From positions 1-64,000 of the forward strand of contig MU270084.1 in assembly GCA_021432635.1 (NCBI GenBank): a DNA stretch of 64,000 bases, in the 5' to 3' direction. Under the pieces are notes generated by a model. The model had not been told where the DNA came from. It did no database searches and saw only the letters and a list, made by a program, of their open reading frames with translations. This DNA comes from Thozetella sp. PMI_491 (taxonomy: Eukaryota > Ascomycota > Sordariomycetes > Chaetosphaeriales > Chaetosphaeriaceae). Positions within the stretch are counted from its first letter, which is position 1. Each line of letters opens with the position of its first letter. Shown here in pieces: positions 29,731-58,265 of the stretch. A program made the position numbers and the translations under genes.

Positions 29731-30774
29731 CTATATCAGGCGCATCCTCTGCATGGCCTCAAACGCGAATCGGCGCGTCGGCTTCCAGATCCGCTTGTTT
29801 CCTTGCCACGCCACATATGCCGACCCCACAGCCATGCCGCCCAGATGCGCGGCGTGCGCGAAGCGGATGGCGCTAAACCCAAACAGCGTTCCGTACAGGT
29901 CAAACAGGGCGAAGCCGGCGAGCGCCTGCTGGGCCTGGAAATCGAACGGGAGGAACAGGATGCCGACCTTGGCGTCCGGGAACTGGAACGCGAAGGCAGC
30001 CACCAGGGCGAAGACAGCACCACTAGCGCCGAGGGCAGGACTGAAGGCGGCGGCTGCCTGAGCAGGGATAACGGCGGCCGCGATGTGGTGCGCGAGGCTG
30101 GCGAGCACGCCCGACGATAGGTAAAAGGCAGCGAGATGGCTACCGCTGCGCTCAAAGGTCCGGCTCTGGGCAATGGTGGGGCCGAAGGTGAGCAGGCCGT
30201 ACATGTTGGCGGCGAAGTGGAGAAAGCCGGCATGGGCGAACATGGACGTCAGGAGGGTGTAGTTGTGCCCGAGTATCGGTATGTGCACAAGGCGGTGGGT
30301 GATGGCGGGAGCGTAACTTAGCAAGAAGACACCCGAGTTCAGCCCGGCCGTGGCGAGGAAGAACCGGCCCGCCTGGGTCGGCGAGAGGCGGTTCCACAGA
30401 TCGTACGGCGAGTGCGCCCGTGCCCGTCTCTGTGCTTCGGCGTCCACGTTGAAGGCGGCGGCGCGGGCATACTCGATCTCCTGGTAGGTGAGGGGGCCCT
30501 GGCCGCTGCCGCCAAAGTACAGCAGATGCTTCTCGCGCTGCGCACGGGCGGCGCGGGCGTCCTGGTAGACCTCGTAGGCGGCGCAGCCGACGTAGAGGGC
30601 AGAAACGATGGTGACGCTCCAGAGGACGGGCCTGAGGATGCGCACGCGCGGGACGGCGAAGTAGTTGTGTTCCGGGTAGCTCGAGAACGGGCGCGTCGGC
30701 GCCGTGCGACCGAAGCCCGCGCGAGGGCGGGGTCCCCAGGCTCGGGCGTGGCTTCTAAGGGCCGCGCGAAGCAT
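29731..30774 (-). CDS. PCP1: Mitochondrial rhomboid protease
   Basis: Single exon, 347 residues. The N-terminus is rich in Arg and Ala without acidic residues, as in a mitochondrial presequence, followed by a first membrane helix (PVLWSVTIVSALYVGCAAY). The rhomboid core shows HAGFLHFAANMYGL, the catalytic serine in GASGA (Ser251) and the catalytic histidine in HAAHLGG (His310). This 1+6 membrane-segment layout is that of yeast Pcp1/Rbd1 and PARL, intramembrane serine proteases of the inner membrane that process dynamin-like Mgm1 and cytochrome c peroxidase. It looks like a conserved housekeeping gene inside an otherwise accessory region. The upstream region carries an AACCCTAACCC element at 30906. 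Confidence 0.93.
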   Translation of the reverse strand: MLRAALRSHARAWGPRPRAGFGRTAPTRPFSSYPEHNYFAVPRVRILRPVLWSVTIVSALYVGCAAYEVYQDARAARAQREKHLLYFGGSGQGPLTYQEIEYARAAAFNVDAEAQRRARAHSPYDLWNRLSPTQAGRFFLATAGLNSGVFLLSYAPAITHRLVHIPILGHNYTLLTSMFAHAGFLHFAANMYGLLTFGPTIAQSRTFERSGSHLAAFYLSSGVLASLAHHIAAAVIPAQAAAAFSPALGASGAVFALVAAFAFQFPDAKVGILFLPFDFQAQQALAGFALFDLYGTLFGFSAIRFAHAAHLGGMAVGSAYVAWQGNKRIWKPTRRFAFEAMQRMRLI

Positions 30775-34985: not shown

Positions 34986-35783
34986 TTAAGCAGTAGTCTC
35001 CGCCTGCTCACCCTCAGCAGCCGAGATGCCGTAGATATCTGATCCTGTTAGCATGAAATAGCCTCTCAGACGGAGGAATGAGCTTACAAAAGTCCCGCTT
35101 CTCCTTCTCGGTGGTGGCCTCAGCCTGCTCACCCTCGGCGGCGGTAATGCCGTAGATGTCTAATCTTGTTAGCGCCAAGTACCGTTCAGTTTCGGACAAC
35201 GAGCTTACAGAAGTCCCTCTTCTCCTTCTCGGTGGTGGCCTCGGCTTGCTCTCCCTCAGCAGCGGTGATGCCATATATGTCTGGTCATGTTAGCACCAAA
35301 CAGTCTCTCAGACCGAACCATGCAACTCACAGAAGTCACGCTTCTTCTTCTCGGTGGTGGCCTCGGCCTGCTCTCCTTCAGCGGCGGTGATGCCGTACAT
35401 GTCTAACCTTATCAGTGCCGAGTACCTTACACCTTGAGGCAAACTTACAGAAATCCCGCTTCTCCTTCTCAGTGGTGGCCTCAGCCTGCTCTCCTTCGGC
35501 GGCAGTGATGCCGTAAATGTCTGACCATATTAGCTTGAAGTACGTCTAAAACGCTCCATGGGATTGTAGCCTTACAGAAGTCTCGCTTCTTCTCAGTAGC
35601 GTCAGCCTGCTCTCCCTCAGCGGCAGTGATACCGTAGATATCTAACAAAGTTAGACAAGATTTGTTTTACAGAAACGGAGAGGCATAGAACGTACAGAAG
35701 TCACGCTTGTCCTCGCCCTTGGTCACGGGGGCGGCCAGGGAAATGGCGCCAAAGGCGAGGAGAAGAGCGGTCTTGAACAGCAT
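34986..35783 (-). CDS. Dikaritin-type RiPP precursor, six Kex2-flanked repeats, one per exon
   Basis: Seven exons (35783-35696, 35641-35576, 35520-35449, 35402-35331, 35280-35209, 35159-35088, 35038-34986) give 164 residues. Residues 1-18 are a signal peptide ending LAAP. From residue 28 the protein is six units: Asp-Phe, core Y-I-Y-G-I-T, acidic linker AAEGEQAEATTEKE, then Lys-Arg. Core 3 is YMYGIT and core 6 is YIYGIS; unit 6 ends at the C-terminus without Lys-Arg. This matches UstA/PhomA-type precursors cut by Kex2 and cyclised by UstY proteins. All six introns (46-55 nt) split the first core Tyr codon (T|AT or T|AC), so every repeat exon is 66 or 72 nt and symmetric. A UstYa-like gene is divergent from it. 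The product is predicted, not known. Confidence 0.9.
34989..35641 (-). repeat. Six-copy coding repeat with conserved intron position
   Basis: Exons 2-7 of the precursor gene are near-identical tandem copies, each followed or preceded by a short intron whose sequence is not conserved between copies except at the borders. Exons 3-6 are exactly 72 nt; exon 2 is 66 nt through loss of two linker codons. The exon similarity against diverged introns shows that the coding units are homogenised or selected while introns drift. Confidence 0.9.
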
Positions 35784-36269: not shown

Positions 36270-36950
36270 ATGGCCACCTTCAAGAGCGTTGAATACCAGT
36301 CGCTTTCGCCAGAAGGCGAGCGCGCGCCGAGGCCGAGGTGGCAATCGCGCGCCGTGCCGTTTTCCATCGGATGTCTCACGACAATGCTGCTGGTGGCGCT
36401 GGTCGCCGTCACACACAAGGTCATCTTCGTACCGAAAACTGCTGCAGAGATCGAGGCGCAAGACTGGAACTACTGCGGTCACACGAGCGAGGTTGCCAAG
36501 CAGCGAGGATGCGTGATGGAGCCGCTCTATTATGGCTGGTTCCCGCCGCAATGTGTCTTCAGCGACCTCATCGATCTCTTTCCCGTTTTCGAGGACCGCA
36601 AGTGGTACCGGGACGTCAACTTGACAGTACCCCTCTCGCCCGAGCAGCTATGGAACGGCCAAGTGAGCCCCATCTACACCTCGAGGTGAGTACATCTAGG
36701 TATTCGGCTTCATCAAGTCTAAATCAGCTAGCTCACACTCTACGCTAGGTACCATAGCGAGCACTGCTTGTACCAATGGAGGAAGCTACAGTATGCGGTG
36801 GACCATCGCACCGAGTTCGTCGACAACAAGACAATTAGCTATGGGCATGAGAACCACTGTGCCAACCAAATGTCTGTGAGATGTGAGGACCCCACAGACA
36901 TAACCGAGATAAACCTCGGCTTCTACAAGTGCAGAAAGAGCATTTGGTGA
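36270..36950 (+). CDS. UstYa-like (DUF3328) oxidase, RiPP cyclisation candidate
   Basis: Exons 36270-36685 and 36749-36950 (63 nt intron) give 205 residues. A membrane segment (IGCLTTMLLVALVAVTHKVIF, about 32-52) follows a short cytosolic tail. The family signature of two HxxHC motifs is present: HSEHC at 141-145 and HENHC at 172-176, with the usual YHSEHCLYQWRKL context. The spacing between the motifs is shorter than in the canonical UstYa at 38 kb and the C-terminus is brief, so it belongs to a divergent subgroup. UstYa proteins are copper- or metal-dependent oxidases that form ether or C-N macrocycles in dikaritins. Sharing a promoter with the precursor makes it the leading maturase candidate. 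Confidence 0.85.
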
Positions 36951-37864
36951 AAGGACAAATAGAGTAGCTAGCCAAGACCAAGACAAACCTGCCATTGAAA
37001 TATTCCTCCAGATCCCCCCATATCATTCGCTGCAGCTCGCTGCATCCCGAAAGATAAGGTGCCTAGGTAGGTTGTGGGCGGACCAGGCCTCGGCCGAAAA
37101 TGGCGGGCTGCTGCATGTTGACAAGGCTATCGGCTTCCATATTCCGAACCAATCGTAACCCTGATTAGGAGGCTGCCGCTTTCGACATATAGATCCTGGA
37201 GTTTATGTTCTAGGAACGATTCCCTAGACTGGCAGGAGGTGTTCTGTCGGCGTCGCGCAATACGGGAGAAGGATCGGTGGACGTTGCTTCGACGCCACGC
37301 ACCCCTGTCCGTTGATGCATAAAACTAGTCGGCATGCGGAGTATAGAGCGAAGCGATGGCCCCTAAGTGGTCGGGAGAGCGATTCGAAGGCCCTGGGCGT
37401 GAAGAGGGGTCGCTTAGGAATCCCCAGGGGCGGCTGGCTAGGGCGGGTTTTAAAGACGCTTATACCAAGCTCTTCATTCTCCGTTGTCCGGCCCTTGTGG
37501 CGGGATGTAACCTTCGCCATCTCCCCCCAGTTGCCCCCATAGGATAACACACAATGACCTGCTCAATTGGTACTAAGCCTATGATGCGACAGTCATCGCC
37601 ATTCCTCACGACATGAATTGGTGGGAGGGAAAATGGGGAAGCCCCTGAAGGATCACAGCCTGGTTGCGGTATCTGGCAAGAGATATCGCGTCTCAATGTA
37701 TTGCCTTTGTCAAAGCTCGGCCTAGGATAGCTGGAAGACTCCGGCGTTTGTAATCCACTTCCGCCTCCTTGCACCGCGTGCTGGGACTCCAAGAGAGAAG
37801 GGGCTCTGTAATCGCCATTCACAAACTCTTGTCTACGAGACTGTTGAATCTCTAAAGAAGCAAC
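36951..37864. other. Intergenic, nothing recognised
   Basis: Space between the two UstYa-type genes. ORFs on both strands are short and without resemblance to known families. A pair of in-tandem UstY genes commonly share control, but no shared motif was proven. Confidence 0.4.
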
Positions 37865-38953
37865 ATGTCATCGTCATCACAGACCTCGCTCGAGTCCAAG
37901 GAGCGCGACGATGCTACTGTCGGTCTCCTATCGTCAGAGTACCGGCATGACGATGGCTCCGACTTCTCGGCGCCTTTCCCAGCGCGGGACGTCGCCGCGA
38001 AGCATCGAAAACGAACCAGATGGCTGTGGACCGCGGTCGGGATTGCGGTCCTATGCGTCACCAATGCCATCACATTTGCCCTCACACTAGAGTTCTCGGC
38101 CGGGCGACGCAGTGGCTCTAATGTTGCCGTGCCTCCCAAAGGCACAGCTCCGTTTCTGCAACACCTCCCGACAGAGACCACGAGCAAGTGGTTCGATGCG
38201 ACATTCTACGACTCAACAGATAGTGTGTATAGGAAGCATCACTCCATGGAGACTGAGCTGGCGTGGAAGGCACTGACGCGTAGGGTCCCTTCTCAGGTCT
38301 GTTCATTTTTATTATCGGCTAATATATTCACGCAGCATCGGGCGTGTTTCTTGTAAACAAGGAAGACGCCGCGGCATCGGACGTTGACCCTGCCAGAAAC
38401 GCCTACTACGACAACTCCACGGCCGGCTTGGTTGGATACCCGGTGGCTTTGGAAACGTTTCATCAAATACACTGTCTGGTACGTGCTAGCCGACGAGGAG
38501 CAAGTACTTCATGAGTGGCCTCGAGGGCAACTAACATCTGATGCCCGTAGAACATGCTCCGCCAGAACCTCTATTTTAACGTGAACTTCACGCGCAGTCA
38601 CTACAACGTCCTTTATGGCATTCCGTGGCCCCAAGAAGACTACATCACTATCCACCTCGGTGTGTGCCCTTTCGGAGAAGCACAAGACAGCGCCGAGCTT
38701 GCTAACATGAATGCCAGACCACTGCGCCGATTTCCTGCGCCAGAGATTGATGTGCACTGCGGATCTCGGCCTCGTGCCCATGGTATGGACTGGTCACCAA
38801 GGACGCACCACCGGTGACTTGAAGAGGATACACACATGCAGGAACTACGAGGCCGTAAGGCAGTTCGCGCTGGAAAACGCGATCGACGAGCCTCGGGAGC
38901 CGGGCCTTGTCAAGCCCAAGCCAGGCGACTATGTTGTCAGCGATTACATTTAG
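37865..38953 (+). CDS. UstYa family (DUF3328) protein
   Basis: Exons 37865-38279, 38336-38478, 38551-38659 and 38718-38953 give 300 residues; the first donor (GTAGGG) was chosen because it alone restores phase and the family's ALTPSG segment. A membrane helix (WLWTAVGIAVLCVTNAIT) lies near residue 52. Both signature motifs are complete: HQIHC at 181-185, with the following NMLRQNLYFN, and HLDHC at 221-225 with ADFLRQRLMCTADLGLVP. These histidines and cysteines are essential in characterised UstYa proteins, which oxidise core peptides of ustiloxin-type RiPPs (some act on other metabolites). It stands 0.9 kb from the first UstYa-like gene and in the same direction. Dikaritin pathways often use two such proteins. 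Confidence 0.93.
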
Positions 38954-39242: not shown

Positions 39243-40129
39243 TTATTTCTCGACGTCGCCGTTCCATTGGTCACGAGGCCGGAGCAGCCAGGTCTCGGCT
39301 AGTGCGAAGAGCAACGAGAAGCCGAAAGCCATCCACTGGATAACCTGCAGGGAGATTCCGGGGCTAATGTTAATAGGCGAGTTGGTGACAGAGCCCGACG
39401 AGTAGTGCAGCGCCCCGGCCGTCTCGCTCGTAGCGAGGGCGGAGGTAAAGACGAGGCCAACCGACAGATACATGCAGCCATAGGTGAGTCGCTTGATCAG
39501 CATTGCCCGGCGCGGCTTGTCTGGGTTGGGGTTGTTGATGCTGCGCTTCAGGAGGAAGAGCAGGGGCAGCGAGATGAAGAAGAGGAAGGCGGCGCCGGCC
39601 AGGATGGAGATGAAGATCTGCGACTGCAGGACCAGTGCGGTCGCGATGAGGGACTTGGCCTCGGTCTGGCTCGCATCGAGCTTGGTGCTGTTGGCGCTCG
39701 CGCCGGTGCCGTTCCCGGCTGGAGCATCTACGTGAAAGAGGTTGGCGAAGACGGTGTCCGCCGAAGCACCCGAGGTCGACTGGCAAGCGAACTTAGTATC
39801 GTTGGCCTTGGCACAGATACCATAGTACCCAAGACGGACTTCGAGGGGGCTGCTGTTATTGGCGGAGGGCTCGAGCTTCACGATGTAGAGCTCCGGGATG
39901 CCGGGCGACGTTGAGACGCAGCTAGCGAGGGAGAGGGCTGCGTTGTTCGTCAGTCACTGTTCTAGTGGGGCGAAAGAGAGAGTACATACCGTAAAACACG
40001 AGAACGGGAATTACGATCAAGTACGGGATAAATTTCACCGTCAGCTTGGCTGGGACTTGTTAGCAGCCTTTACCAAGGAAGGTTAGACACCAGGGACGTA
40101 CTAATGATCTTCGCCACGAATGCAGGCAT
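39243..40129 (-). CDS. Fig1-family calcium regulator / membrane fusion protein
   Basis: Exons 40129-40102, 40049-39990 and 39937-39243 give 260 residues; all three joins are phase 1 with 52 nt introns. The protein has four predicted membrane segments: residues near 16-32 (FIPYLIVIPVLVFYALS), then ALVLQSQIFISILAGAAFLF, LTYGCMYLSVGLVFTSALA and VIQWMAFGFSLLFALAETW. The extracellular loop after segment 1 contains LGYYGICAKAND and nearby cysteines, the signature of Fig1. In yeast Fig1 supports calcium entry and membrane fusion in mating; in filamentous fungi it also affects hyphal growth and development. It appears unrelated to the RiPP genes on either side. Confidence 0.8.
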
Positions 40130-41178: not shown

Positions 41179-42903
41179 ATGGAAATTTTCAACTTTGGGG
41201 GACCGTTTGTACTACTTGTGGTGGCCTGGCTTGTCTTCGACTGGCTGCAAACTCGCCGTGCAACCCGCAGACTAAAGCAACAAAATGGCTGCCAAGAGCC
41301 TCCCAGGTATCCTCACAAGGACCGAATTTTCGGGTCCGATCTTGATCGAGACACCGCTGAGTATGCGAAGCAGTCCAAACTCCTAGAGCGTTGGACTAGC
41401 CGTTACAAGAAGTATGGCGATACCTTTGGGGCCATTATGCAAGGCACACCGGCCATTTGTACGGTCAACTCCACGAATCTGTTGGCTATAACTACCACAA
41501 ACTTTAAAGACTATGGTGTACAGCCTATGCGAAGGGATGCCACTCTTCCATTCCTAGGGGAAGGGGTCTTTACAATGGATGGTCCCTTTTGGGAGCATTC
41601 ACGGGCCCTTCTTCGGCCGACGTTTACAAAGACAAATATTGCGAACTTGCCTGCATTTGAAGTCCATCTCCAGAAGTTCTTGAAGTTGCTTCCCCAAGAT
41701 GGAAAAACGGTCGATTTGAAACCATTGTTGTGCAAACTGGTTGGTCATCCTTGTCACCTCTACTTCCGGGGAAACAATAACTAAGGTGCTTACGTTCCAA
41801 GTTCATCGACACCTCGACTGAGTTTCTCTTCGGAGAGACGATGGGTATCCTCAATGAAGACGAGCCGGAAAGATCACAAGCATTTCTTGATGCGTTCCAT
41901 TATGCTCAAAAAGGTACAGGCAGACGGCTCCAGCTGGGAAAATTTGCCTTCCTCTACCGCGACAGGAAATATTACGAGTCGATCAAGGTCGCTCATGCGT
42001 TCGCCGAGTACTATGTTGATAAAGCGATCAAGTATCGGAGAGACCATCTTTCAGCTGAGGCCGAGAAGAGCGAGACAGTGTCCGATGGAGATACTCCTGG
42101 GCGTAGAGTTGTGTTGCTCCATGACATGGCTTTGGAAACCGACAATCGAGAGGACCTACGGAACCAGATCTTGCATGGTAGGTTTAATTTCTTTGGAAAC
42201 ACAAATTCGCTGAAGCTGATCTCTATTCTTCGACAGTATTTCTTGCGGGTCATGAATCAAGCGCCATCACTATCGGCAACGCAATGTTTCAACTTTGCAG
42301 GCACCCAGAGAAATGGGAAACGCTTAGAACAGAGGTTTTGGCCCTCGGCACTGCACCTTTGACAGTCGACAAGGTAAAAGGTCTAAAATACATCACCAAT
42401 GTGATCAAGGAAAGTCTGTACCCTTATCCCATATTCGCTCACGTCAGCTCGAGCCCTGTATCTCACAATGCCTTTCTCCAGCCCTCCGACTCTATCCCGT
42501 AGCCAGCATGGCAACACGAAAAGCGTACAAAGACACAATTCTCCCTACGGGAGGAGGCCCTAATGGTACCTCACCCATATTCGTCCGGAAAGGTTCCGTC
42601 CTCTCGACCTCGGTCTACGCACTCCACAGGATTGCAGAATGCTGGAAACCAGATCCAGAAGCGTTTCGACCTGAGCGTTGGGAAGACATCAAACCCGGGC
42701 CAAACTATATGCCTTTCGGGTGGGGGGTCAGAACCTGTCCTGCGCGTAACTTAGCGGAGATCGAAATCGGGTATACACTAGCGAGGATAGCACAGATGTA
42801 TAAGACGATCGAGTGTCGAGACGAGGTTATGGATTGGGTGGAGGAGTTAAGAGTTTCCACGAGTAGTAAGAATGGAACGAAGATCGGCCTTATACTAGCT
42901 TAA
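41179..42903 (+). CDS. Cytochrome P450 (CYP52-like clade)
   Basis: Exons 41179-41739, 41802-42177, 42237-42413 and 42482-42903 give 511 residues. An N-terminal membrane anchor (FVLLVVAWLVFDWL) precedes the fold. Motifs: I helix FLAGHESSA (residues 314-322), ETLRLYP with the ExxR pair at 371-374, PERW, and the haem loop FGWGVRTCPAR with Cys457. The final Gly of the loop consensus is Ala here. In place of the usual acid-Thr pair the I helix has Glu-Ser, as in several fungal alkane- and fatty-acid-hydroxylating P450s. It lies 2.2 kb beyond the canonical UstYa gene, and a P450 (UstC) is part of the ustiloxin pathway, so a tailoring role is possible but not shown. Confidence 0.9.
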
Positions 42904-47983: not shown

Positions 47984-50225
47984 ATGGGATCTGCTGCCCC
48001 AACCGAATCCAACGTCGATGTGTAAGTGACGCCCTGCCAGCCTTGCCACACCACCCCGTCGGGATGCTCTTCTAATTCAATCGCTCAGGCTCATCATCGG
48101 CGCCGGCCCAGCCGGCCTGATGGCAGCTGCGTGGATGGCGCACTGCGGCGTCAAGGCCCGCATCGTAGACAAGCGGAATGCCAAGATCTTCTGCGGCCAG
48201 GCCGATGGTCTACAGTGCCGCAGTCTGGAGATCTTCGATAGTCTCGGCTTTGGCGATCGAGCCTGGAAGGAAGCCAACCACATGATCGAGATTTGCATGT
48301 GGAATCCTGGCAGCGACGGCGTCATACGTCGCTCTGATCGCATTCCGGATACCATCGTTGGTCTCTCGCGGTTCCAGCAGATCGTCCTCCATCAGGGCCG
48401 CATCGAGCGCTTCTTCTTGGACAACATCAAGAAGTTCTCCAATGGTGGGTGCCATTTCTTCTTTGTTTGGTCTCTAGCGACGCCTTCTCTGAGACTCACA
48501 CGTTGTAGATTCCATCAAAGTCGAGCGGGGAGTTCTTCCCGAGTCTCTCGAGATTGACGAGTCCAAGGTGGATGATGAGTCTGCTTACCCTGTGACCGTC
48601 AAGTTGAGGACACTCAGCGAAGAGGAAGCTATGCCGAAGCAGCAGGCAACCGGCAGCAAGGTTGCCGACGGCCTCTTCCGCAGCAACTTGACACAGGAAG
48701 ACGACGAGGAGGACTTGATCCGACAAAGCCAGGCCCGCTCCGGCGAGTCAGAGATTGTCCACGCCAAGTACGTCATCGGCTGCGACGGTGCCCGCAGCTG
48801 GACCCGGAGAGCCCTCGGCCTCGATCTAGTCGGCGAAGCCACTGACTTCATCTGGGGTGTTATGGACATCATTCCCATCACCGACTTCCCCGACATCCGC
48901 ATGCGGTGTGCCATCCACTCGGCCGAGAACGGCAGTCTGATGGTCATCCCCCGCGAGAATGGGCTGGTGCGCTTGTACATCCAGCTCAAGGAGGTGACAC
49001 CCGATGCCTCCGGTCGTGCGGACAGGTCTAAGATCACGCCTGAAGTCATCTTTGGTGCGGCGCAGAAGATCCTCAGTCCATACAAGATCGATTATGAGTA
49101 CTGCGACTGGTGGACCGCCTATCAGGTATGAAGACCGCCCAACTCCAGTGTCCCCTTCCTCCGTACTACCAGTGCTCTAACACTACGCAGATTGGCCAGC
49201 GTGTGGGTAACAACTTTGACGCGCATCGCCGTGTCTTCCTCGCCGGCGATGCCGTGCACACGCACTCGCCCAAGGCTGGCCAGGGCATGAACGTGTCCAT
49301 GCAGGACACCTACAACCTGGGTTGGAAGGTCGGGTTGGTGGCCAAAGGGGTTGCTAAGCGCGACATCCTCGGTAGCTACGAGAGCGAGCGTAAGATGGTA
49401 GCACAGGACCTGATTGACTTTGATCACCGCTTCAGCCGGCTCTTCTCTGGCCGGCCCGCCAAGGACGTCATGGACGCCGAAGGTGTGAGCATGGAAGAGT
49501 TCAAGGACGCCTTCCTCAAGGGCAACCTGTTCGCCTCGGGCCTGATTGTCAACTACGGTCCTAGCCCCGTCGTTGCCAAGGAAGGCACCGGGGCCGAGGC
49601 CGCCGCTCCGAAGCAGAGCCTCGCCACAGGACTTCCCGTCGGCATGCGCTTCAACAGCTTCAAGGTGCTCAACCAAGCGTGTGCGCGGCCGTGGCACTTC
49701 CAGGAGCGGCTCAAGGCAGACGGACGCTTCCGCGTGGTCTTGTTCGCAGGCAACGTGCTCGACCCAGCGCAGAAGGCGCGCGTGGACGCCTTCTGCGCGA
49801 AGCTGGACGCCCCCGAGAGCTTCCTGCATCGGTCGGGTGGCACGCTGCCCCACAAGGACGGCGAGCGCACGCACCGTGCCGTTGAAGTGTTGACGATTCA
49901 CTCGGCCAAGCGTGTCGAGACGGAGCTACTGCGCGACTTCCCCGCGGTGCTGCACCCGTTCAACTCGCACACCGGCTGGGACTACAACAAGGTGTTCGTG
50001 GACGATGAGAGCTACCACGAGGGCTACGGCGATGCGTACAAGAACTATGGCGTCGACCGGGAGCGCGGCTGTGTTGTCGCCGTCCGACCAGACCAGTACG
50101 TGTCGTGGGTGGGCGAGCTGGAAGACTTCGATGACCTCCAGAAGTACTTCGAGGGGTGCCTGGTGTTGGATGCGCCCCAGACCAACGGCCACGACGCCAA
50201 CGGGACCCAGATCCCCATTCGATGA
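47984..50225 (+). CDS. FAD monooxygenase of the phenol 2-hydroxylase type
   Basis: Exons 47984-48021, 48089-48444, 48509-49125 and 49191-50225 give 681 residues. The first intron interrupts the start of the FAD fold, so the dinucleotide motif reads VLIIGAGPAGLMAA only after splicing. Other class A flavoprotein hydroxylase motifs: the DG motif YVIGCDGARSWTR and the ribityl-binding FLAGDAVHTHSPKAGQGMN. The C-terminal 200 residues form the thioredoxin-like dimerisation domain of yeast phenol hydroxylase (RFRVVLFAGN, then VAVRPDQYVSWVGEL). It should hydroxylate a phenolic ring with NADPH and oxygen. It may serve aromatic catabolism or a secondary pathway with the SDR and MFS genes nearby. Confidence 0.92.
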
Positions 50226-50570
50226 ATGTAGCCTGCGATACAGGCCCCTGTACTGTATGTAGAATAGCTCCAATCATGTCGAGGAGGTAAGCGATGTACA
50301 TATAGCTCCTCTTTCCCCACCCGGTGGCCTGAGTCGAGTGCAAGCGGGGAGAAAATGCGACATTGCCGTAATCAAACCTGCATAATGCCAAACTTTAAAT
50401 GGGCTTATTGTTCGATTCTATCTGCGTGCTGGACATCAGAGCGCCCCTGATCTAGGCTCGGGTTTGCGAAAGGCACGCGGGACAATCAATAGTTCGGGGT
50501 AGGGGACAGGAGGTTGAGAAGTGCCAGATCACTGCAAGTAAGTTCTTGTAACCAAGCTAAACCGAGCCTG
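50226..50570. other. Convergent 3' intergenic region
   Basis: Between the convergent monooxygenase and TPR-SET genes; no feature seen. Confidence 0.4.
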
Positions 50571-52804
50571 CTAAATGTCCAGAACGCTCAAGTCATTCTT
50601 GTATCCGGTGATAATGGCGTATCCGAACTCGGCGGCCTCGACGCAGCGCTTCGCCATGTCCTCGCGCCCTGTCGCCGCATAGGCGTCGGCTATATACCGC
50701 AGAGCTGTGACTACGTGGATCGTCATCAGTGCTGCATTTGAAGAGCTGGCGTAAATCTTCATCGGGTCCCAGTCCGCCTCTCCGCCATCGTCGGGTGCGT
50801 AGAATCCAAAGTTTCGTACCACCCTGGTCCCGTACTTGAGCACCTTGCTGTGGTTCTTCCTTCCCCGGTGCGCCTCAATCAGCCAGTTGTTGGGATAGAT
50901 CAAGGCTAAGCGCGGCAGATTCTCGTACACCTCTGGCTCGTGAAGATCCTCGAGCTGCTTGGCGAGCCTGTCCACGGTCCTGATGGCCGAATCAGGAACA
51001 ATCTTGTCCTTTGACGGGTTCTTCTTGACGCAGGCCTTCTCGACAGCCAACAGCACCTCCTTCCTCTTCTCTAACGCCGCCTCGCTCGTCCCCTTCTCTC
51101 CCTCGCATAGCCTACAGCGGCACTCGAACCCCCAACCTTCCATGAACTGCTTCTGGCGGAGGTCTACGAGGGCCTTGACGGGGACATATTGCTGGAACAA
51201 CTCTTCGCCCTTGCGGATGTCTCGCACCGCCCGGCTGATCAATAGATCGCCTAGGAACGAACGCATGCTATTTGGCACGCAGCTATGGTTCATGTAGCTT
51301 GAGTACGCCCAGAGCCCTTTGGACATGCGGCCGGACTCTGTGTGTGGCTGAGTGTCCTCAAATGTCGACAGAGGTGCACTGAAGCAATTCTTGGTGCGGA
51401 TGCCCTCGACCATGAAGATGTCGACGACGGGGACGCCATCCACTAGTGTTCCTTCGAGTCCACTAGCGGCATATCCGAGGTCGCCAGGATGGAGTTTGAA
51501 CACGGTCTGCGCGAGCGATGGGTTGTCCGAGAGCTGGCGTCCCATCATCGCATACAGCGCGGCAGAGGCGCGGGCTGGTTCATACTGGTTCGGCATCAGG
51601 GCCGCCTTCTCGGCGAAGATGAGGTCGCCGGCCTTGAAGTCGCGTGCGGCGAAGATGCCGCGGCCGTGGAACGCGGAGTCACGGACCTCGGTACCCTTGA
51701 CGAAAGAGCCCACGTCTAGATGAACATTTGATGGGTTGAGGGAGGCATACAGGGCCGGAAAGTCGTAGTTTCCAGTGTCCTCCTCTCTCAGCCGCGCGAG
51801 ACAGCGCTCGTATTCTCTCTTCAGACCTGCGCCATCGGCTTTAATGCGGAGTGCGGATTCGAAGTGTGCCTTGCTTGCCTTGTAGTCACAGAGTCCGTAT
51901 GCCGCTCGCCCGGCAGTAAAATAGGCTCGCCAGTCTGTCGGGGCTCCAGTACAAGAAGCTAGAGCATCGAGCTGGACAGCGTCGTAGCGGCCAAGAACAA
52001 GATTGACCCCCGCCCGTTTGGCATAGACGCCGCTTGCGAATGCGTCGTCTCCAGACGCTTCGATCGCTTCTGTGTAGCTACATGCATACAGGTCAGCCAT
52101 TTGCTTAGGACTCATCCAAGCCGGTTTTCGGCTAGGACGGGGCAAGTAGCTCACCAGAAAACCGCCGTAGGAAGATCCTTCTCGATAAAAGCTTTATCAC
52201 CAGCATCCTTCCATTCCTTGGCAGATTTCAAGAGAGGGCCCATCCGAAGTGACTCAGGGATGACCGGGTCAGAAAATCTCAAGAAAATGACGTCGGATGG
52301 GTGATCTACGCAAATCATGTAGTCCTTCCCGCCTCCGTTGTCTTTGTAGTAGGGTTCCTTGACGGCAACTACGCAACCTTCCGGTAATGCGGATAGAACC
52401 GATGAATCCGGCTGGTTGTATATGGCTAACTTATCGACGTTGCCGAATCCATCTTCCACAATGGATATCGAGCCTGCGCTAATGTACGGAGGCGTGATGG
52501 CCCGCACGACCAGCCCCTTTCCGCGGTGGTGAATCTCGAGGCGCAGCTCACTGAGAGGTATCTAAGTTTTTGTTAGTCCGCTGGAAACTACCGAGTGCAC
52601 AGCTTGCATTACAATTTCTAGATCTTTGATGGAACGTGCTGATGCAGGGTACGCCTCGGACATGACCGGCTGCTTGACCGGGCGAGGTGCATCGTCGACG
52701 AGGTCTTGCTTCTTGAGATGCGATCGATGAGTCTTGATTAGCTGCTCCCTCGACGACTTGCTGGGAGGCAGCTGCTCTTTCAGGTCTTGCAGGTCTACGG
52801 CCAT
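50571..52804 (-). CDS. TPR-SET domain protein, SMYD-like lysine methyltransferase
   Basis: Exons 52804-52613, 52561-52155 and 52077-50571 give 701 residues; intron 1 has a CTAAC branch, intron 2 is 77 nt. An N-terminal region of about 190 residues precedes TPR-like helices (DAGDKAFIEKDLPTAVFCYT and DYKASKAHFESAL). The SET domain begins near residue 330 with GRGIFAARDFKAGDLIFAE and contains the hallmark NHSCVPNS and a post-SET cysteine cluster (FECRCRLCEGE) for zinc. Such proteins transfer methyl groups from S-adenosylmethionine to lysines of histones or other proteins. The order TPR then SET is common in filamentous fungi. Its place between the monooxygenase and SDR genes does not itself show a shared role. 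Confidence 0.9.
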
Positions 52805-53650
52805 TATGAGATCGCAGAAAATGCACGCAGCGGGAGAGAGACAGGAGTTCGGGTTCGGTCAATCCTTCCGGAGGGCCAAGTGGGCTTGGTTTTAATTATC
52901 ATGTGTTGTCTCCTGACGATTTTGTACAATCAAGAAATCTGGCTTCTCGGAACCGGCAGAGCCGCACGTAGATTGCTTCGCATGTGTGCATATTAACCGG
53001 TGCCCTCTTTGGGGACAAAATACCCCACGCTCTACCCAAGTTTAATTCCATAACGAGTTCCTTAACACAAGCTATAAAGAATTCGTTTCAGTTTCGTTAG
53101 CGAAATACCCTTGTTCGCTCATGGTGGCCAGGTTAAGCCCAAGTGGGTGGAAGCAGGTGCTTTGCGTTCCAAAGAATCAACGTTCAAGTTATAGGGATAT
53201 CTTACCAGCCGACCATTCTATCCAGCGTACTAAGGGTCTGCTAATGTCAGATGATATTTATATACCCCAAGGTATTGAAGTGTGTCTGGCATCATCGGTA
53301 GCACAGCCGTAGTAATATGATCTCAGCCAGGGCAAAGGCTGACGCCATCACGATGGGTACGTCTTCATGAGCGCACCAATTACAAACCAAGCATACCTCA
53401 AACTCATTCTTAACCCGAGCGAATCATCATTAAACCGCCTCAATCCCATCATGAGAGCGTGGGAAGGGTTTAGCGGCCGCGCGCGGTTTGGCGGGGTTTG
53501 GACCATTCTCCGGCCTTATGTCCGGCCCATCACGAATTTCAACAGCACCGTGAAGAACGGTACAGTGACGAATTTGGGTATAAAAGCTGCTTCGGAATAC
53601 CTCGAGTCTAGTTAGTCTTCTCGGGCAGACATAGTAATCTAATCTCCATC
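52805..53650. other. Divergent intergenic region (SET and SDR promoters)
   Basis: Holds both promoters. No ORF with family resemblance. The SDR side contains a TATA box at 53579. Confidence 0.4.
53579..53585 (+). promoter_or_regulatory. TATA box of the SDR gene
   Basis: TATAAAA 66 bases upstream of the start codon at 53651. Confidence 0.5.
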
Positions 53651-54653
53651 ATGGCTGCCTTTGATACGAAGTCCTGGGCTAACCCACCCGCTCGAACCTT
53701 CACCAAGCCGGACCGGCCGCTGGTATGGTTCATCACGGGCTGTTCTTCCGGCTTGGGGCTGTCTCTTGTGCGTATTGCGCAGTCACATGGTCACACAGTC
53801 ATTGCAACCTCTCGGAACCCGGCTCGCACGCCCGACCTTGTGGCCGAGGTCGAGGGCAAGGGGGGCAAGTGGTTGAAGCTCGACATCGACGACCCCCAGT
53901 CGGGGAAAGTGATTGATGATTTAGAGGCACAAGGCACCCATGTGGACATCTTGGTGAACAACGCCGGCTGGTCGGTGCATAATAGCGCCGAGCAGGTCAC
54001 GGAGGACGAGGCACGTGCGCAGATCGAGACGCTCTACCTCGCGCCATATCGGCTGATGCGGGCTGTGACTCCATACATGCGCAAGCGCAGATACGGAGTG
54101 ATCGTAAACATCAGCAGTGGTGCTGGTCTCGAGGGAAGGGAGACCATGGCTGCCTATGCAGCTGGAAAAGCTGCGTTGGACGGTGAGACGCCACGACCCC
54201 AGTCACCCCACGCCCGGTGCTTCTTGGTTGAATGCCTCGGCTGACCAGTCTGATTGTCAATATCTAGGAGTAACCAAAGTTTTCGCGAAAGAAGTAGCGG
54301 ACTTCAATGTCCGCGCTCTATATGTCACCCTCGGCGGCTTCAACACCAATATGCCAAATGCGTTAGTCATGGGCTCCATACCACTGGATGCCGACTACGA
54401 AAACACCATGGTCGGGATGATGACGAGAGGTTTAGGCAGTGGAAACTTCAAGCCTGACGGCGACAAACAGAAGGCTGCTAAGGCTATCTACGAAGTTGTC
54501 GTCGGTGAGGGAGTGGGTAAGGGTCGCGAAGCCGAGCGCGTCCTGCCGCTCGGGAGAGATGTGGCTGCGAGGATTAAGTCGATCGCAGAGCAGTGGCAGA
54601 ATACGATGGAGGCATTCGGCGAGGTTTGCAACAATGTGTACGCAGAGAAATAA
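53651..54653 (+). CDS. Short-chain dehydrogenase/reductase
   Basis: Exons 53651-54182 and 54268-54653 (85 nt intron) give 305 residues. Classical SDR motifs are all present: cofactor loop TGCSSGLG (about residues 29-36), NNAG with the preceding VDILV, the catalytic serine in NISSGAG and the YAAGK pair (Tyr and Lys). An Arg after strand 2 (ATSRNP) suggests NADP preference. The C-terminal substrate region (GGFNTNMPNAL) resembles fungal ketoreductases of the 17-beta-hydroxysteroid dehydrogenase-like group. It converges on the MFS gene with only 154 bases between stops. The substrate is not evident. Confidence 0.92.
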
Positions 54654-54807
54654 GCATCTAGGTTTCTCTTAGATTGCCGGGAAGACGCCGCTCCTTGCAA
54701 TGTTGGCCCGCTAAACCCCTGCCACTTCCATTATGACAACCATAAAGTGTAAACCATCCGCAGAGCCCAGAATCCAGTACCTATCGAGGAAGTAATGACG
54801 CCCAAAA

Positions 54808-56458
54808 TCAAAGAATGATGCGCCACTGTGCCTGATTATGTCTAATCTTCGCGCCAAAGGGTATCAGAAGCAACATGCCGAGGCCAATGATGGCGACGTA
54901 GACGCCGGCCTGGGTACCGAAGCAGTTCACATATCCGGCCTGCTCAACCCAAGGAATGATCCCGTACAAGAAGCCGAATGCAACAATGTTCTTCGAGCCT
55001 GCAGAACCCGTTAGTGGGAGTATACATGGGACGCAAGGAAATTGGCGTCGAGCGCCTACCATTCACTAGCATCAAGGCGTCTGAGTTGACGGGTAGCACG
55101 CAGTCCGAGACGTAGGCCATTGTCGTGGTCGGAACTGCCGTCAGAGCAACTGAAATCATGCCGTAGCCAAAGAACATGCTCGTCCAGTGCATGGTTTGCT
55201 CTACACCGTAGCCAAAGACGAGGCAGCCGGCACCCGTGATTAGCAGGGGCAGGATCAGGAGATACAATCTGCTCTCTGGCTCAAAGACACCGTGGTTCTT
55301 ACGCGCCCGCCAGTCGCAGAAAACATCAACCAGCCAGCCGCCAGCGTAAGCGCCTAGCACGTTGCCGATCAAGCCGGGGATGTTGATCAGGCCGTTGATC
55401 GACGGCGACCACGAGTACGGCGGGGCCTGCAGGACGAACGAGTTGAGAATATTGACGGCCACGACGATGACCAGAGAGACCGCATAGCCCAGGAAGGAAT
55501 ACACGACGCACGGGTAAGCAAACATGGGGAACGGCCGGAGGAACATCTTGACCAGGTTGGTGTTGGGCGGGACCCCAGACCAAAGGCTCAGCTCCTGCGC
55601 CCAGGTCTTCTTGGGAATCTGGGCCTGGGTGCTAATCTCGGCTGAGGCCTCCAGATAGCTGTCTCCAGTTGCCTTTTGCTCTCCGCCCGCCGAGATCTCT
55701 TCAAACGACGAGTTTGCACCCCGCGCATCGACCACGTTCTGATTCTCGTCGCGGTAGTAGCGGGTCTCGGGCACGAAGAGCAGCACTGTCAGGAAGTTGA
55801 GGCCCGTCAGGATCACGGCAATCCACTTGTGCCAGCGCCAGCTCAGGCCGGTGACGATGAAGCCGCAGATTAGCGGGCCGATGGTGTTGCCGCCAGAGAT
55901 GAAATTCATATAGATGCCCATCTTGGCGCCGCGCTCGTGGAGGAAGTAGAGGTCATTGACGATGCTGGCGCCAAGGGCCTCGGTGGACGAACCGGCGAAC
56001 GCGGCAACGATGTTGGACCACAAAAGGGAGTTGAAGGAGTCGGCGCAGGCTCCCCAGATGTAGCACACGCAGAGCAAGAGCGAGGCAAAGACGAAGACGG
56101 GCCGCTTGCCGAAGTAGTTGGCCACCGGGACCCAGAAGAAATTGAAGACGCCCAGCACGAGGATCGGCCAGAGGAGCAGGTCCGACGTCTCACTCGGCGT
56201 CTTGTTGAACTCAATGGACAAGAGGTAGAAGGCGGGCGCAAGGCCGCCGATGGCGTAGTTGGTCAGGAAGGTGAAGGCGCAGATGGAAAAGAAGGCCACA
56301 TGCTTCTTCCATCGGGGCCACCGAAGCGGATCGTTGGGGTCGTTGTCGGACGGCTTCGGGACAAGCACCAGCGAGTCGGTGGAGGAATTGGAAGTCTCCT
56401 TGCGCAGCTGGACTGTCCCCTCGCTCCGGTCGAGCTCGTGAAGCGTGTGAAGACGCAT
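54808..56458 (-). CDS. MFS drug/metabolite transporter (DHA1-like)
   Basis: Exons 56458-55060 and 54998-54808 (61 nt intron, CACTAAC branch) give 529 residues. The start at 56458 was chosen because it opens the hydrophilic tail seen in the family; the frame is open further upstream. After a 65-residue cytosolic tail with NDPNDPLRWPRWKK come twelve membrane helices in two groups of six, separated by a long charged loop (VVDARGANSSFEEISAGGEQ). The loop after helix 2 has YFGKRPVFVFAS, a form of the MFS motif A. Such proteins export toxins or secondary metabolites by proton antiport; the cargo is unknown. Position next to the SDR and monooxygenase genes suggests a small metabolic group. Confidence 0.9.
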
Positions 56459-58265
56459 GTTTGCGACAGTACACAACTCGGGATCCGATGCAGGCCGAGT
56501 CCGCGCGATTCCTCTTGGATATGCGTCTCCGCAGAATTGCTCTTGACGCCAGAAAGGGCCCTCAGCAAGGATGCGACGAGAGCGACAACCCAACTTCTTG
56601 CAACACCAGAAACTCGCGGGCCGATCGAAGGTAAAGAGCGCGAGAGCCAGAAGCCTGGACGCTTCGTGGGGGCGGAAACCCAGGGCGATTAATATAGGGA
56701 GGATGCACGGTCCGGATGAATGTGTATGATTGGTGGCAAAGGCAGGGAGAGGCCTATGTTTTACTCGGACGTCCGGTAGTGCAACCTAGGTCGGGGCAAA
56801 ACTATATTCGGAGGCATATGTGGCGCCTTGGCGACGGCAAGACACTGTGGAAGCCGTCTCATTGGGCTGATTGGGGTCTGCACCTAGCCGTGCAGCGATG
56901 GCGCACCAGGCGCCGAGAGACGCAGCGCAGCTTTCCTGCATCTCTCCCAGCGATATTGCATGGCTGCAGACGAACTATACTACGGTTGGTCACGAGCCTG
57001 CGTCTGGCTGCAGGGAATTTCTGAAAAGAGATCGCGCTGCCGGGGCGGTGAGCGAGCGTCGCCTGCAAGCGAGGGCCTCATTCTAGACATGAGCGGGCAG
57101 GGAGAGATAACAGCCGCCGGTTGCGCCCCGGCCTTCCGGTGCCGGCACGGGGTGTGTGTGTCCCGTGCCACCTCCCGGCGCCCCCCCTCGAGCGAGCTTC
57201 CCCGGAGGCCGAGACGGGGTGGGTGGGCCCCCGGGAAGGCGCGGGAACCCCTGGCGCGTCCAGAGCCCAAAAAATCGTGGCTGACCCAGCCCCTCCAAAG
57301 GGAATTTGTGTCTTCTTTACCCCCTTTCCCCAATCGGGGTCTCCCTTATTAGAGTGATGACGGGCGGTACGCCACTTTGCACAATCGATACTGGGCGCTA
57401 AGAAGGGACACAAAGAGCGAACCTCTCCCCCGTTCCAGGACTTTCCTCGCAGTTTTATTTTGTCTCCATACGAGCGGATACGAATGCTGTCTCAAACCCT
57501 GGTATTCCCAGGAGCCAAGTTGAATCCAGCTCAAATCCGATAGCAAAAAAAGAAGATGAGTATCGACAAGTGGGCCCTGGCAGCCCTGCGGCTAAAACCT
57601 CACCAGTGGGGGGTAGGATCGTTCGGTCCACTGACTCGGGAGGCGTGCGGCGTCCCCTGTTATCGCTAAGCCCTGCCGCGAAGTTAGGCTCGGTGGTGCT
57701 GGACCTGCTTTGCTCCTCCCTTCTCCTGCGAACTGCACGATATCAGCAAATTCGTCGACGGAGATGTGCCAGCCAGGCATGCTGCGCAAGCTTCCTACCT
57801 CCGTAGGATCGCTCATGTCATCATTTTGAGATTTACTCCGTATAAGGTACAGTACGTATGGCGCAGGCACGGCATCGCCGCCAAGCCTAAGCTGACCCAA
57901 AGTGTGGAGGACCACAGGTCCAGTAGCTCGGTGTGGTGGGCTGAAGCATGGTGGAAATTTGCCAATTTAAATTAGCTACCAGGGGAGCTTACATGCGGCG
58001 CGTCAACAACCGACCGCACCACTGGTGCAGGCGCCCAGGCACCCAAGCCCTGTCCCTAGCCGTTACGCTTTATAGTATCCAAAAGCCGAATCCATCACCT
58101 CGGGGCTAGCGCCGCTATGACAGCCGTCGGGCGACTAAGCAGATACAAATACGTACGGCCCTCCCGCTGTGGGCGGTGGCGCGCTCAGCTCGATCGTCAT
58201 CCGGCCGCCACTCTTTTCCATCTCCGCCGTCGTCCGTCCTCCCCCTCCTCCACAAGTCACGAAAC
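56459..58265. other. 1.8 kb intergenic region
   Basis: No gene supported. A GC-rich segment (57080-57290) with C and G runs gives long but featureless ORFs in several frames. Confidence 0.4.

Follow-up and report, generated by a model that had tools for sequence, protein, structure and literature searches.

The thresholds for fungal Kex2-processed repeat proteins, as given in the available portions of two reports (PMC6339444, PMC7329392), are secretion and the presence of at least three repeats of at least 8 amino acids at Kex2 sites. For dikaritin clusters, an older five-part definition includes a tyrosinase, a methyltransferase, several DUF3328 genes, and a transporter or peptidase, and functional clusters missing some of these parts are known (PMC12048977, available part). 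The words "intron" and "exon" are absent from the available main text of the KEP survey of Umemura 2020 (PMC7329392), and in that of Le Marquer 2019 (PMC6339444) "exon" and "splic" are absent and the count of "intron" is 0. Outside the fungi, each repeated peptide domain of nasonin-6 from Nasonia is encoded by one exon, with phase-1 introns, which the available text of PMC2853521 reads as exon duplication. The literature basis of the present comparison, covered in part for each source, includes PMC9632046, PMC12048977, PMC7099791 (which gave no match), PMC9233826, PMC7329392, PMC6339444, PMC9769878, PMC8786786, and PMC10182648. A prior sequence-only reading of the locus described here stated that it knew of no precursor with a strict one-exon-one-core layout, and this agrees with the accessible portions of the open-licence literature, where none of the matches listed describes a fungal Kex2-repeat or dikaritin precursor with one exon per core, which is not proof of absence. 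The locus belongs to Thozetella sp. PMI_491, a genus placed in the Sordariomycetes, Chaetosphaeriales (PMC6367777, available part), and the window refers throughout to the whole stretch of 64,000 nucleotides that was analyzed.

Structure of the precursor gene and its genomic neighborhood

The precursor gene occupies positions 35783-34986 on the minus strand and was spliced by script into seven exons and six GT-AG introns, giving a predicted protein of 164 amino acids. Exon 1 (35696..35783, 88 nt) encodes the hydrophobic signal-peptide-like start, the first Kex2 site (KR), Asp-Phe, and position 1 of the Tyr codon. Core unit 1 is encoded by exon 2 (35576..35641, 66 nt), and units 2 to 5 by exons 3 (35449..35520), 4 (35331..35402), 5 (35209..35280), and 6 (35088..35159), each of 72 nt, with unit 3 being a YMYGIT variant. 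Exon 7 (34986..35038, 53 nt) contains core unit 6, a YGIS variant, followed by the stop. Introns 1 to 6 (35642..35695, 35521..35575, 35403..35448, 35281..35330, 35160..35208, and 35039..35087, with lengths of 54, 55, 46, 50, 49, and 49 nt) are all in phase 1, each splitting, between codon positions 1 and 2, the Tyr codon that follows Lys-Arg-Asp-Phe, and a YTRAY branch motif is located at −13 from the intron end in all six. All introns are backed by the spliced model and the branch motif, and introns 4 to 6 also by the likeness between introns described below. The anatomy proposed in the sequence-only reading, with six same-phase introns in the first core Tyr codon, was thereby reproduced, and each core unit corresponds in the spliced model to one symmetric exon, as had been suggested. 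The predicted protein is composed of a hydrophobic N terminus, MLFKTALLLAFGAISLAAP, which is signal-peptide-like by eye, and six KR-DFY[IM]YGI[TS]AAEGEQA units, which take the form DFYIYGITAAEGEQAEATTEKEKR. Kex2 sites are found at five internal KR positions and ahead of the first unit, with no such site after the last unit. The six repeats, of 19–24 residues each, exceed the size and number thresholds for Kex2-processed repeat proteins, and secretion is predicted.

Across codons 1 to 16 of all six units, the predicted reading frame shows a pS of 0.624 and a pN of 0.036 (pN/pS 0.058), compared with pS/pN values of 0.048/0.206 and 0.018/0.181 for the other two frames. The constraint is specific to the predicted frame, indicating that the frame crossing the introns is real and not the result of chance. 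A loose intron pattern has 43 matches on the minus strand in 64 kb, compared with the six introns modeled within 0.8 kb here. The possibility that the introns are prediction artefacts, or that the gene is an unspliced or non-functional relic, draws on the deposited proteins, where no relative of the precursor was found at E ≤ 0.01 among the 8000 candidates sharing most words that were scored, so that no deposited model backs the gene. However, the six canonical introns with their constant branch distance, the spliced frame without a stop, and the low pN/pS value all speak against this explanation, as do two junctions of a similar layout that are present in a deposited model for a second locus (L026, see below), making it extremely unlikely. 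Judged from its sequence, the exon layout of the precursor is real as a gene model, with the splicing itself being predicted. In a search of the organism's own genome with the precursor, no relatives were found outside the gene, and seven of seven matches fell inside it. A Pfam match of the precursor to Lambda_Bor (32.7 bits, cut-off 25) was taken as chance on repeats, with no single stretch passing the cut-off, and matches to DUF7911, Clr2, MFA1_2, and three NCBIfam families were below their cut-offs and likewise taken as repeat-driven chance.

On the opposite strand, with 487 bp between the two start codons, lies gene B (36270..36951, plus strand), which encodes 205 amino acids with one hydrophobic segment (by eye), contains one intron (36686-36748), and has no Pfam family. 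Relatives of gene B are found at 13 other places in the genome, 12 of which have a UstYa match no more than about 5 kb away, with C16:1205707 being the sole place away from such matches. From its sequence, gene B looks like a member of an unnamed UstYa-associated protein family. The UstYa gene itself (37865..38953, plus strand) starts 2.1 kb from the precursor start codon, a distance that places it close to the precursor as expected for a dikaritin cluster, and is comprised of four exons (37865-38300, 38336-38478, 38551-38659, and 38718-38953) encoding 307 amino acids. The protein matches PF11807 over its full length (132.8 bits, profile positions 4-220 of 220). The deposited UstYa of Thozetella sp. 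PMI_491 matches it at 97% over 100%, with 300 amino acids compared with 307 in our model and a different first donor. Related UstYa proteins (P0002-P0008, 43-48% identity) come from Parahypoxylon ruwenzoriense, Hypoxylon spp., and Aaosphaeria arxii. No sequence relative of the protein was found in the PDB at E ≤ 0.001. The designation of the precursor as dikaritin-like in the sequence-only reading is borne out by the six Kex2-flanked Tyr units together with the adjoining full-length UstYa gene.

A cytochrome P450 gene, with Pfam matches in two separate open reading frames (41179..42900, plus strand), is a candidate tailoring enzyme and a putative member of the cluster. The gene for a Fig1/SUR7-type membrane protein (39246-39953, minus strand) is located between UstYa and the P450, and genes for a phenol hydroxylase-type FAD monooxygenase, a SET-domain protein, a short-chain dehydrogenase, and an MFS transporter are found downstream (48120-56593). 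The six precursor units provide the kexin-separated repeated cores of a dikaritin cluster. With regard to the older dikaritin definition, the window contains one UstYa place. Among the 29 window proteins scanned besides the precursor, no tyrosinase match was found, the only methyltransferase-type match is the SET domain (50574-52154), and an MFS transporter (54947-56593) and a rhomboid-domain protein (29734-30774) are present. Searched exon by exon, UstYa has at least 149 matches in the 72.3-Mb genome (150 of 203 candidates scored), the number of genes being lower than that of matches, and matches were found in 0 of 14 control genomes, the kind of which is not stated. The genome thus possibly holds a very large stock of dikaritin-like clusters.

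Repeat precursors elsewhere in the genome

The survey comprised the window and 36 stretches (248,796 bases) picked at or between UstYa places, and so covers part of these places. The scan detects tandem peptide repeats in any frame and needs at least three similar repeats to recognize a precursor. There was no repeat cluster in 22 of the 36 stretches. In total 15 repeat precursors were counted, including the window gene, and three of these (the window gene, L026, and L029) have one phase-1 intron per repeat. The remaining 12 show no introns between repeats (two in L016 and one each in L017, L018, L025, L028, L032, L034, L035, L038, L043, and L045), 11 being uninterrupted and L045 being uninterrupted apart from a run of N. 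L045 was considered as a fourth split gene and rejected because its gap holds this N run; it was counted as uninterrupted with the reservation that an intron could be present there. The run (L045:1813-1887) falls in the 63-nt repeat array of the precursor, making the assembled copy number unreliable. L018 and L028 were included with inter-repeat sites of GR or KPR/KAR/KRR in place of the regular KR, whereas L020, which has repeats with no Kex2 pattern, was taken as a minisatellite and left out. The repeats in L002, L003, and L007 were taken as the genes of L017, L018, and L028, and each was counted once. Two different repeat precursors, with units QLYRDNGGGYSALVPGDVEKR and EPGTYGVDTFGAIKR, are present in the single 10-kb stretch of L016 (C84:105000-114999), where they adjoin two UstYa places and a relative of gene B.

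The L026 gene (C15, about 1,085,230-1,085,800) has exons of 88, 42, 78, 78, and 65 nt and four phase-1 introns, with the repeat exons being 78 and 78 nt and the repeat introns interrupting the final Gly codon of GYVGAGG. Its splice signals are weaker, as intron 3 ends in GAG and the branch motif of intron 1 is found only far upstream. The deposited Thozetella protein P0013 is the product of this gene, and both of its GYVGAG|GALILNYD junctions, at introns 3 and 4, are as in our model. At the 5' end the two differ: P0013 appears to retain intron 1 as coding sequence and is spliced from an alternative donor within exon 2, so that it lacks most of that exon. The L026 model may be wrong in this 5' part; it recovers a complete unit of the repeat. 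A relative from Trichodelitschia bisporula (P0014) has two GYTGAGG[TA]LI cores. In a metagenome protein (P0015), GYTGAGG is followed by 22 extra residues starting with KSLKKS and then by GALILNYD, and the second GYTGAGG is followed in the same place by a KFPYY tail. P0015 therefore appears, from its protein letters, to read through a G|GTAAG intron in each of the two repeats, at the site found in L026, since the inserts begin with Lys, as such read-through would give, which suggests gene calling that allowed for no introns. The core GYTGAGGALILNYD is common to Thozetella, Trichodelitschia bisporula, and the metagenome sequence. The cores of such precursors are described as highly diverse, and a shared core is unusual in that light.

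In the L029 gene (C20, about 736,880-737,480) the repeat exons are 57 and 57 nt and the phase-1 introns are located in the Trp codon of WYATG; the 5' end of this model is ambiguous, and the branch motif is absent from its three repeat introns. The cores of the three split genes are unrelated and their introns interrupt the repeats at different positions, indicating that the feature they share is one phase-1 intron per repeat and not an exact site. Only in the window gene is the intron positioned directly after KR-D-F. The three genes may have gained their introns separately.

Origin of the layout and number of cores

The gene probably encodes a UstYa-type (dikaritin-like) precursor whose layout arose by tandem duplication of a core unit fronted by an intron. 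A phase-1 intron would have fronted the core of an ancestral gene, and a unit made up of intron, core, acidic spacer, and KR-DF would then have been duplicated in tandem. As this unit holds one intron, introns of equal phase and exons whose lengths are multiples of three would follow. By analogy with the family, Kex2 would cut the secreted precursor after each Lys-Arg to give six near-identical peptides starting DFY[IM]YGI, and UstYa would cross-link the peptides through Tyr. We infer splicing, secretion, Kex2 cleavage, and cross-linking in vivo, and likewise the order in which the intron preceded the duplications.

Comparison of the six window introns with one another showed 5 of 15 pairs to be alike above 500 shuffles (4-6, z 7.8; 5-6, z 5.4; 3-5, z 5.0; 4-5, z 4.9; 2-6, z 3.9). 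The remaining ten pairs gave z values of 0.4 to 2.9, with 1-2, 3-4, and 2-5 among those that do not stand out. When the last 20 nt, containing the branch region, were removed, the values were 5.2 for 4-6, 3.4 for 5-6, 2.6 for 3-5, 2.0 for 2-6, and 0.6 for 4-5. The likeness of these five pairs indicates that introns were, at least partly, duplicated along with the exons, and the shared position suggests a common origin of all six introns. The proposal that the repeats multiplied by exon duplication is accordingly supported in the form of a joint duplication of exon and intron. Additional information comes from the paralogous cluster L051 (C6), which contains the closest genomic relative of gene B (45-58% identity) and the UstYa with the lowest E-values among the fetched stretches. 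One of its 43 listed models is a candidate single-core precursor, MKFVAILSALVAVGLAAPMAAPAAQDGKRAPEVFTIAYVGAEAGEVAE, whose intron would interrupt the codon immediately preceding the core Tyr. This candidate fits an order of intron first and repeats later and is only suggestive.

The opposite order, in which an intron entered one of several existing repeats and spread by gene conversion or unequal crossing-over, would account for the 12 of 15 precursors whose repeats show no interruption by introns (including the one with the N run) and for the different repeat places at which the three split genes are interrupted. The large synonymous differences between the window repeats (the pS of 0.624), where recent homogenization is not seen, speak against such spreading, and the L051 candidate, with its intron ahead of a single core, weakly opposes it as well; late intron gain is therefore unlikely. 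The idea that introns shield repeats from homogenization was dropped, as the fractions of same-amino-acid codons that differ overlap between split genes (0.436 in the window gene, 0.600 and 0.345 in two parts of L026, and 0.487 in L029) and 12 uninterrupted genes (0.167-0.519, with some values derived from part of the copies because adjacent ones were skipped, 3 of 5 being used in L016a and 3 of 5 in L043).

Another set of explanations assigns the layout a function in setting the dose of peptide. That exons 2-6 are multiples of three (66 or 72 nt) was confirmed, and all 32 subsets of these exons can be skipped with the frame kept, which favors the suggestion of the sequence-only reading that skipping lets the cell adjust how many cores each precursor carries. 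However, duplication of a unit with one intron explains this symmetry by itself and needs no selection, introns of 46–55 nt between exons of 66–72 nt suggest intron definition, and, as the repeats give nearly identical peptides, mostly dose would change. Under intron definition, exon skipping is uncommon in fungi. Variation of copy number by exon skipping was thus left unsupported, and we regard it as highly improbable. Intron retention could also lower the dose, since keeping any single intron ends the predicted protein early (6 of 6), after 0, 1, 2, 3, 4, and 5 complete cores, so that retention of intron k would yield a precursor ending after k − 1 cores and less peptide. Truncation of this kind is expected in many genes, however, and such transcripts may be degraded, making dose control by retention very unlikely. 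It is also quite unlikely that the gene represents a UstYa-linked class, spread over several lineages, in which each core has a phase-1 exon, gene callers break up the genes and so hide most of them from repeat-based genome mining, and splicing, through skipping or retention, sets the core number. Tandem duplication of an intron-fronted unit remains the preferred reading of the layout.

Comparison with known systems

With two further precursors in the Thozetella sp. PMI_491 genome built alike, the layout is not a one-off. Its main interest lies in how such genes grew and in the reasons for which gene finders may overlook them. Surveys for such peptides search predicted proteins for tandem repeats, and a precursor with seven short exons is easily mis-modeled, as illustrated by the window gene, which has no deposited counterpart at E ≤ 0.01, and by P0013, with its apparent read-through of intron 1 and the loss of most of exon 2. 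If the layout is common, the peptide class would be under-counted. The window gene also provides a clean case for asking which came first, the introns or the expansion of the repeats, and its layout makes the core copy number testable by cDNA.

The precursor resembles the UstA/PhomA dikaritins and the KEPs in its signal-peptide-like start, its tandem Kex2-flanked Tyr units, and the adjoining UstYa (DUF3328) gene. In contrast to these systems, each repeat of the window gene is a separate exon, a difference that is drawn from the available survey texts and not from the ustA and phomA gene structures. The epichloecyclin precursor GigA, as described in the accessible part of PMC9233826, is similarly a multicore Kex2-type protein with imperfect repeats, with gene structure falling outside this comparison. 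The closest parallel in exon layout is nasonin-6, which, according to the available text, differs from the window gene in having animal defensin-like domains with no protease signals between them and no RiPP enzymes. On that partial text, the principle of giving each repeat its own exon, with phase-1 introns, is already known outside the fungi.
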